Source: Candidatus Bathyarchaeota archaeon
GTDB taxonomy: Archaea > Thermoproteota > Bathyarchaeia > Bathyarchaeales > Bathycorpusculaceae
NCBI GenBank assembly: GCA_026014615.1
Contig: JAOZHZ010000004.1
Span: forward strand, 124,001 to 188,000
Direction of reading: 5' to 3'
Length of the DNA stretch: 64,000 nucleotides
Below, piece after piece: positions 35,932 to 61,393 of this stretch. The notes beneath the pieces are model-generated. The model searched no databases. It had not been told where the DNA came from and saw only the letters and a list, made by a program, of their open reading frames with translations. A program made the position numbers and the translations under genes. Position 1 is the first letter of the stretch. The number at the start of each line of letters is the position of its first letter.

Positions 35932-36216
35932 GTGACAAGCGTAAGAAAACGACTAGACCACGTAATACTTGAGCTTGAATCGATGGGGACAGAAGTTGAC
36001 GAGGAAACCGCCAAAAACGTCATCGCCGAATTAAAAGTCATACATGGGGCTTACCGAGAAACCAAGAACGCGCCTATATGCTGCTTTTGCTACGACGGCG
36101 ACCATAAAATAGTCTGCGACGTTGCGGGTCCACTGGAGCATGAGCGGTTTATGGAGAAATGCAAGGAATGCCAAGCGCAAATGAAAAATGTGCTGGTTAA
36201 CCTCGAAACCACGTAA
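35932..36216 (+). CDS. Hypothetical protein with Cys residues
   Basis: 94 aa GTG-start ORF; CCFCYDGDHKIVCDVAG and CKECQAQ. Confidence 0.55.
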   Translation: MTSVRKRLDHVILELESMGTEVDEETAKNVIAELKVIHGAYRETKNAPICCFCYDGDHKIVCDVAGPLEHERFMEKCKECQAQMKNVLVNLETT

Positions 36217-36265
36217 ACAACCCCTGATTTCGCGCCTACAAAAGCAGATTGTACTGATTCCCCCC

Positions 36266-36393
36266 ATTTTACGCCTTTTTCAACCTTTTTCCGCCTTTTC
36301 CAGCCTTTTCCAGCCGCGGGTTAAACCCATTTTGAACGCTGAATTGGGAAAACAGCCCAAAACAGACGTTTCAGAAAGAAGGGAGGGTAGACG
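36266..36393 (+). repeat. Copy A of a novel dispersed intergenic element
   Basis: Five tandem 10-nt units (ATTTTACGCC TTTTTCAACC TTTTTCCGCC TTTTCCAGCC TTTTCCAGCC), then GCGGGTTAAACCC, a conserved tail and GGGTAGACG. Confidence 0.85.
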
Positions 36394-36500
36394 GAAAACG
36401 CGGCGCAGATGCCTTTGGGTGTGGTTGCTTCTGGGCAGTCACACATCTTTAAACCATGCTTCAAGCTTCCCTTCTGCGGTGCAGCAACATGCAAAAGTCC

Positions 36501-36779
36501 ATGGAGTCCAAACAGAAGTACTTGGTACTGGTGAAACTGAACCCTACAAAAACCGAAAGCTTCTACAATTCACTCATGTCAATATCTGAAATGCCCTCCG
36601 AAGGCGTCAGGCTAAACTCCACCTACAATGTCTTTGGAGAATGGGACTTCGCTGTATGGTTTGAAGCAAACAACAACGACGACGCAGTTCATTTTGTTGG
36701 AGAAAAAATCCGCGCCATAGACGGCGTTGTCGAAACCGTCACGATGCCCGCCACTCCCATCAAAGAATACCGCATGTAA
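36501..36779 (+). CDS. Stand-alone Lrp/AsnC ligand-binding (RAM)-like domain protein
   Basis: Start refined to MESKQKYLVLVKL; YNVFGEWDFAVWFEANNNDDAVHFVGEKIRAIDGVVETVTMPA. Confidence 0.65.
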   Translation: MESKQKYLVLVKLNPTKTESFYNSLMSISEMPSEGVRLNSTYNVFGEWDFAVWFEANNNDDAVHFVGEKIRAIDGVVETVTMPATPIKEYRM

Positions 36780-49988: not shown

Positions 49989-50102
49989 TGGCGCCGAGAG
50001 AGGGATTCGAACCCCCGCGGCCCAAGAGGCCACAAGCTAATTGGTGCTTGTAGATTCAAGGCATCTCCAGGCTTGCTCCCTACCTGGCTAGGAGACCTCG
50101 GC
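49989..50102 (-). tRNA. tRNA-Ser(GGA) with 26-nt intron; CCA encoded
   Basis: Minus strand: acceptor GCCGAGG/TCTCGGC + GCCA; T-arm GGGGG-TTCGAAT-CCCTC; anticodon stem CAAGC/GCTTG; long variable arm GGCCTCTTGGGCC; intron after position 37 at plus 50039-50064. Confidence 0.88.
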
Positions 50103-61100: not shown

Positions 61101-61170
61101 AAGTAGCCTTCATGTTGTAATAGTCGATTGTGCTTTTAAGGGTTAGTACGGAGTGCTCTGTGGCTAAAAA

Positions 61171-61297
61171 CGTCTACCCCCTATGTTTTTGAAACACCTG
61201 TTTTGGGCTGCTTTTCCAATTCAGCACCTGAAACGGGTTTAACCCGCGGCTGGAAAAGGCTAGAAATGGCGGGAAAAGGGTAAAAATGGCGCGAAAG
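61171..61297 (-). repeat. Copy B of the novel dispersed intergenic element, inverted relative to copy A
   Basis: Minus strand has five 10-nt units (CTTTCGCGCC ATTTTTACCC TTTTCCCGCC ATTTCTAGCC TTTTCCAGCC), then GCGGGTTAAACCC, the tail and GGGTAGACG. Confidence 0.85.
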
Positions 61298-61393
61298 GTC
61301 AACTTCACATAGCCTCTGTGGTTTTCTGTATCGAAACAACATTACGCCTGATAGACAAAAATAATTAAGAATGCTTCACTTATTTTTTAATTG

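Follow-up and report, generated by a model that had tools for sequence, protein, structure and literature searches.

Copy A, at 36258–36412 on the forward strand of the window (the whole stretch of 64 000 nucleotides that was analysed), is one member of a family of dispersed elements that is restricted to one order, intergenic, helically phased, conserved in position and concertedly evolving. The association of this family with the gene of a protein of ∼90 amino acids with two AbrB-like halves (tandem-AbrB) is solid, and the ancestral form of the element was probably the upstream region of this small, PhS018-like protein gene. We explain the family as phased operator arrays for an MraZ/AbrB-like protein, which would regulate its own gene at the home site and bind the copies now fixed elsewhere on the chromosome, a reading to which we give about an even chance of being correct.

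Copy A is composed of a unit array, a core, a G-run and an A-rich tail, and corresponds to a profile match at G000:C17:160262-160403 (E = 8e-32), where G000 is the window's own genome (2.63 Mb, 29 contigs). Its five helically phased 10-nt units (36266–36315, forward strand) read, in order, ATTTTACGCC, TTTTTCAACC, TTTTTCCGCC, TTTTCCAGCC and TTTTCCAGCC; on the other strand the array reads GGNNGAAAA..., i.e. an AAAGG-type box every 10 bp, in agreement with autocorrelation peaks at lags 10 and 20 and with the unit consensus of each genome. The units are followed by GCGGGTTAAACCC (36316–36328), a 9-nt spacer, a 28-nt block and GTTTCAGAAAGAAGGGAGGGTAGACG. The conserved non-repetitive core, GCGGGTTAAACCC...CTGAATTGGGAAAACAGCCCAAAACAG..., then the G-run GGGAGGGTAGACG, occupies 36316–36393 (forward strand), as seen from the column conservation in 30 copies and from a column constraint that is correlated with that of sister genomes. 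Beyond 36393, a weakly conserved A-rich tail (36394–36412, forward strand; alignment columns +86 to +100) extends to about 36410, so that the limits of 36266–36393 first drawn from the letters alone were too narrow. Copy B lies on the reverse strand at 61152–61305 (profile match G000:C17:185161-185299, E = 3e-29), with its five units CTTTCGCGCC ATTTTTACCC TTTTCCCGCC ATTTCTAGCC TTTTCCAGCC at 61248–61297 (reverse strand). For these two copies the sequence-only reading had described five 10-nt units, an identical 27-nt block, a 9-nt spacer and a 28-nt block with two mismatches, all of which we find exactly as described: the 27-nt block does not differ between A and B, and the 28-nt block differs at two positions. 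The upstream neighbour of copy A is a 94-aa CxxC protein with no convincing Pfam family (35932–36216, forward strand), and the downstream neighbour is a protein with an Lrp/AsnC ligand-binding (RAM) domain (36456–36779, forward strand; PF01037, E = 1.9e-7). Elsewhere in the window, a tRNA match on the reverse strand at 49992–50102 is probably an intron-containing tRNA gene, as it measures 111 nt against a model of 71 positions.

The element had been taken for a two-copy feature, and possibly a relic duplication, for which a search of the host genome and its relatives was proposed. BLASTN with copy A finds 30 places in G000 (E down to 4.9e-31, excluding self), well past anything chance would give, and a profile built from the sequences of these 30 places gives 48 matches, corresponding to about 43 distinct elements once fragments and array extensions are merged. 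Within the genus, the number of profile matches per genome at E ≤ 0.01 is 48 (G000), 38, 26, 17, 16, 15 and 0 (G005), i.e. 15–38 in five sister species, and with these further copies both notions fall. In another family, 21 matches are found in G029 and 10 in G086, with a scatter of further genomes carrying 1–6, and outside the order no match at E = 1e-5 is seen among 300 genomes drawn from the phylum. A look for viral carriage gave five pattern matches in viral contigs, while the profile matched there just once, weakly and in part (E = 0.015). A 10-kb contig put in another genus (L166, G104:C58) shows 99% identity to G029 over 2.1 kb, and is a probable contamination of that MAG.

In the 30-copy alignment of G000 the unit approximates (T/G)TTT(C/T)(C/T)NGCC and is repeated 3 to 9 or more times; the longest array seen, in the copy at G000:C8:363001 (L030:1982-2136, reverse strand, and beyond), has at least nine near-perfect TTTTCTAGCC units. 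Downstream of the units follow GCCGCRGGTTAAGCCCAAATCAAACGCTGAATCAAAAAAGCAGCCCAAAACGGGC, a TTTCAG stretch, the G-run (GGGGGAGGGTAGAC) and the A-rich tail. Most copies are only about 70–80% identical to copy A, with substitutions that are mainly transitions (ratio 1.67), and indels are almost absent over about 110 nt. For the columns beyond the array, conservation in one genome is correlated with that in another (0.70 for G000/G006, 0.66 for G006/G002), which argues for a shared constraint beyond conversion, although part of the correlation comes from common ancestry. The GGGTT-A-AACCC palindrome that had been read as part of the element is indeed present in A, B and a few others, but is not conserved in the family, as its position is occupied in other copies by GGGTTAAGCCC, GGACTACGCCC or AAGTTACGCCC; the GGGTTAAACCC palindrome and a GCCC-AAAAC-GGGC hairpin were both rejected as family features because they are disrupted in many copies. 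A coding element was discarded since no frame is open in all copies (the best in 16 of 30), as was a CRISPR array, the 10-nt units being degenerate and without spacers. At loci L134–L158 of G029 and G086 the element has an additional 5′ domain (about 75 nt, CTGCGGTTAAGGAGCACGYGCGCGTTTGCAACATCACATGAAAACC...), which is conserved and shows no clear RNA structure.

The tandem-AbrB gene points to a candidate partner. In genomes with one or few elements, and in some others, from several Bathyarchaeota families, the element lies directly before the start codon of this gene, namely in G001, G019, G024 (two), G029 (two, one a pseudogene), G046 (two), G086, G090, G127, G139 and G147 (several). An element (E ≤ 0.01) abuts the start codon at about 16 of the 27 tandem-AbrB loci fetched, with two G046 cases added by coordinates, and the polarity at these loci is invariant, the unit array pointing toward the start codon. 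Read in the gene direction, the layout is a C-run (in some), a GGTTGCTTTTTTGA-like motif, a TATA-like box (e.g. AGCGTTTAAATC, AAAGCTTAAATCG; GTTTAAATC is an example of the archaeal-type TATA of these copies), and GG-containing 10-bp units that continue to the start codon. These units recur every 10 bp as AAAGGCNNGA, AAAGGTNAAA, AAAGATGGGA or AAAGTCNNAA, with a consensus of AAAGGT, AAAGAT, AAAGTC or AAAGGC per 10 bp depending on the genome. As for the protein, 14 of 15 members match TIGR01439 (NCBIfam AbrB, looped-hinge helix), with a best E of 1.3e-5 and, in the one case with a bit score, 24 bits against a cut-off of 28.3; PF02381 (MraZ) is matched by 1 of 15 at E = 0.03, below the cut-off. 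PhS018 of Pyrococcus is the best sequence match (E = 1e-6), and is also the best fold match (2glw) of an AF2 model (pLDDT 87.8), followed weakly by an MraZ–promoter complex (E 0.045).

MraZ is itself a protein with two AbrB-like halves, and its boxes lie upstream of the bacterial dcw cluster. The present element resembles the MraZ operator in having 10-nt direct repeats with an AAAG-type core beside a gene whose product is made of two AbrB-like halves; in all ten genomes named above the array stands upstream of what would be the regulator's own gene. Relative to the MraZ site of Mollicutes, (AAAGTGKN3)3 (PMC5282649), the period of 10 and the AAAG-type units are alike, and GGC, GGT, GAT or GTC stands in place of the GTG core. 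Unlike the MraZ operator, the element is archaeal, combines 3 to 9 or more units with a long non-repetitive core, occupies tens of dispersed intergenic sites, and is bound only putatively; the linked protein is moreover closer to PhS018. As this protein fails the MraZ family test, we do not claim membership of the MraZ system; the element most likely is an operator-type protein array that works like the MraZ operator. The AbrB consensus site, TGGNA-N5-TGGNA (PMC11497800), has the same 10-bp period of a GG-containing box, whereas the unit core varies here by lineage (GGC, GGT, GAT, GTC) and the array is long and ordered. The likeness to PhS018 (PDB 2glw), a RIFT-barrel protein of Pyrococcus horikoshii, is one of sequence and predicted fold. 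Phased direct repeats also occur as the iterons of plasmid origins, where an initiator binds them close to the gene that encodes it; unlike these, the element is dispersed over the chromosome in tens of copies and has no initiator gene.

In the genomes where the element is abundant, its relation to the gene is looser. The tandem-AbrB gene was not found in G000 or G003 and gives only weak matches in G004 (G003 and G004 are 95% complete), and these genomes with no clear gene contain about 43, 16 and 17 elements, respectively; other AbrB-family genes are present in all three, with seven matches in G000. In G002 and G006 the tandem-AbrB gene is present with no adjoining element. No convincing remnants of this gene were found beside dispersed copies, in which the TATA-like core is broken (TTTGATTT) and the A/T-only core is lost. 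The broken core speaks against a promoter role for the dispersed copies, among which we see no regulon either. Taken together, the missing gene in G000, G003 and G004, the non-adjacency in G002 and G006, and the lost TATA core imply either that the binder has been replaced, or that the dispersed copies are old relics kept alike by conversion. Two AbrB/VapB-type antitoxin genes of G000 lie within 0.1–0.7 kb of elements (L024 and L036), L024 with the polarity of tandem-AbrB loci.

Intergenic placement holds for 134 of 136 copies, of which 41 lie between convergent, 37 between divergent and 56 between tandem genes (gene calls from a simple hexamer scorer), and with copies in all gene orientations the element is no UTR, terminator or promoter that belongs to a single neighbour. 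The sites themselves are conserved: side and direction are kept in 37 of 41 reciprocal-best flanking protein pairs at ≥55% identity, and 13 of 19 sampled copies of G006 and 18 of 41 of G000 are matched in another species by a copy beside the same gene, on the same side and in the same direction (2.5e-15 and 3.9e-18, respectively, under a simple null that assumes 2500 genes). On the 3′ side of the phosphoglycerate kinase (PGK) gene, for example, the element lies about 45 bp past the stop in G000, G002 and G006, and is lacking at this locus in several sister species, which, with its whole absence from G005, indicates that elements are dispensable. One of the most widely conserved sites is upstream of a CdvA-like coiled-coil gene in G000, G001, G002 and G006, with a further case in G090; a CdvA link as a general rule was rejected, since all 19 genomes tested have cdvA-like genes and the element precedes them in these five only. 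At L172 (G090:C1:1473200-1475300) a single element separates a tandem-AbrB gene, whose frame has an internal TAG, from a divergent CdvA-like gene.

Site-equivalent copies of different genomes share a mean identity of 0.64, which is close to the 0.61–0.62 of cross-genome pairs from non-equivalent sites and lower than the 0.70 found inside G000 (0.61–0.78 within genomes with at least 10 sampled copies). The unit type of the array is specific to the genome (GCC, GAC, ATC or ACC). Non-equivalent copies of one genome share exact tracts of 195 nt in G006, 89 in G003, 86 in G029, 81 in G002 and 60 in G000 that end inside the element, and by such conversion tracts we explain the concerted evolution of the copies. 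At the G029/G086 locus L142/L153 the flanks are nearly identical, and the array differs by exactly three units and by unit type. The homogenisation is best read, from such sequence comparisons, as the work of ectopic gene conversion, together with the gain and loss of units. The arrangement X–element–Y at L134 (G029:C28) appears in G086 as X–element and element–Y (L154/L155; C31, C27), a rearrangement with its break at the element, both G086 halves being well inside contigs.

Such recombination between copies also speaks for a mobile element of a non-autonomous, MITE- or SINE-like kind, whose spread in the ancestor of each genus later stopped, leaving fixed relics homogenised by conversion and devoid of host function. 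In favour of this explanation, the main rival though an unlikely one, are a copy number that ranges from 0 to about 43 among sister species, the species-level presence or absence at the PGK locus, and the g24 genus, in which the element with its additional conserved 5′ domain was amplified independently; old insertion followed by gene conversion could moreover yield fixed sites that have no function. Against it, terminal inverted repeats are absent from the copy A region and the alignments, no long autonomous version, encoded enzyme or mobile gene was recognised near copies, the 5′ end varies with unit number, sites and direction are common to species, indels are nearly absent and genomes have a column constraint in common. 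Recent near-identical insertions at unrelated sites were not found, the best match (195 nt) ending inside the element, and clean empty sites, where target-site duplications would show, were lacking. The miniature mobile element initially considered finds no support in its usual sense, given the fixed positions and the lack of terminal inverted repeats, whereas an ancient insertion burst is conceivable. Bacterial BIME/REP repeats are likewise short, intergenic, present in tens of copies and mosaic by conversion, and contain hairpin palindromes; the present element differs from them in lacking such hairpins, in keeping its sites and direction across species, in its helical phasing and in its link to a regulator gene.

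The phasing itself could suggest an element of intrinsic curvature, for example one that positions nucleosomes, on which archaeal histones or a different chromatin protein of general kind would sit. All eight genomes tested have autocorrelation peaks at lags 10 and 20, W-rich tracts and GCC stand in opposite helical phase with G/C half a turn from the tracts, and the predicted bend of the array is twice that of shuffles (61.6 versus 30.1 degrees; 29 of 30 copies) in a dinucleotide wedge model. Gaps between elements on the G006 chromosome are slightly more even than random (CV 0.71 versus 0.95, fraction 0.051), although this even spacing is only suggestive. Curvature leaves unexplained the long non-periodic core, the polarity and the linkage to the tandem-AbrB gene. 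In addition, G006 and G001 have other letters in place of the T-tracts, with the G of the unit kept at close to 100%, and on this balance we consider an element of this kind improbable.

A small RNA gene or structured RNA from either strand would agree with positions that are independent of neighbour gene orientation and with the archaeal-type TATA in copies preceding tandem-AbrB genes. This TATA is degenerate in dispersed copies, RNAalifold returns 0 pairs, mutual information is strongest in neighbouring columns with no long-range signal, the single-copy fold z is about −0.7 on both strands, the g24 5′ domain has no significant structure and Rfam has no match at the element; a leader RNA or ncRNA, as had been offered from the letters alone, is thus very improbable. 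A transcription terminator or UTR element, as the U-tract array on one strand and the 41 of 134 copies between convergent genes might suggest, is hardly credible, since 37 copies have divergent neighbours and another 23 lie in tandem pairs of the opposite orientation.

We take the element for a DNA site rather than a gene or an RNA. Operator-like protein sites, the iteron/operator option of the sequence-only reading, are the best-supported explanation, by the exact 10-bp periodicity in every genome tested, the few indels and the AbrB/MraZ-like gene linkage, while protein binding, the identity of the binder, the autoregulation and the role of dispersed copies are inferred. A protein, most likely the ∼90-aa tandem-AbrB protein of the PhS018/MraZ fold class, would assemble along one face of the helically phased operator array. 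At the home gene the array, with a TATA box inside the element, would cover the start region and repress its own gene. From there the array may have reached the tens of intergenic sites that it occupies in this genus and, outside its family, in one other genus. Ectopic gene conversion keeps the copies of each genome uniform, and they would thus act as chromosome-wide binding sites, for nucleoid organisation or global regulation, that may serve the tandem-AbrB protein or a functional replacement.

Dispersed prokaryotic repeats are usually mobile and variable in site, or else short binding motifs, whereas the element described here is long and phased, with fixed places and direction, and the joint change of all copies of a genome at fixed sites is a pattern better known from eukaryotic repeats. 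A bolder proposal, tentative and rather doubtful at present, is that the copies are fixed nucleoprotein assembly sites, distributed over the whole chromosome and derived from a tandem-AbrB/MraZ-like autoregulatory operator, that would organise the nucleoid or coordinate cell division (the site upstream of the CdvA-like gene being among the most widely conserved), with array sequence and binding specificity co-evolving in each lineage. With a defined candidate for the binder protein, the family may help to show how an abundant and mostly uncultured archaeal lineage organises its chromosome or regulates its genes globally.
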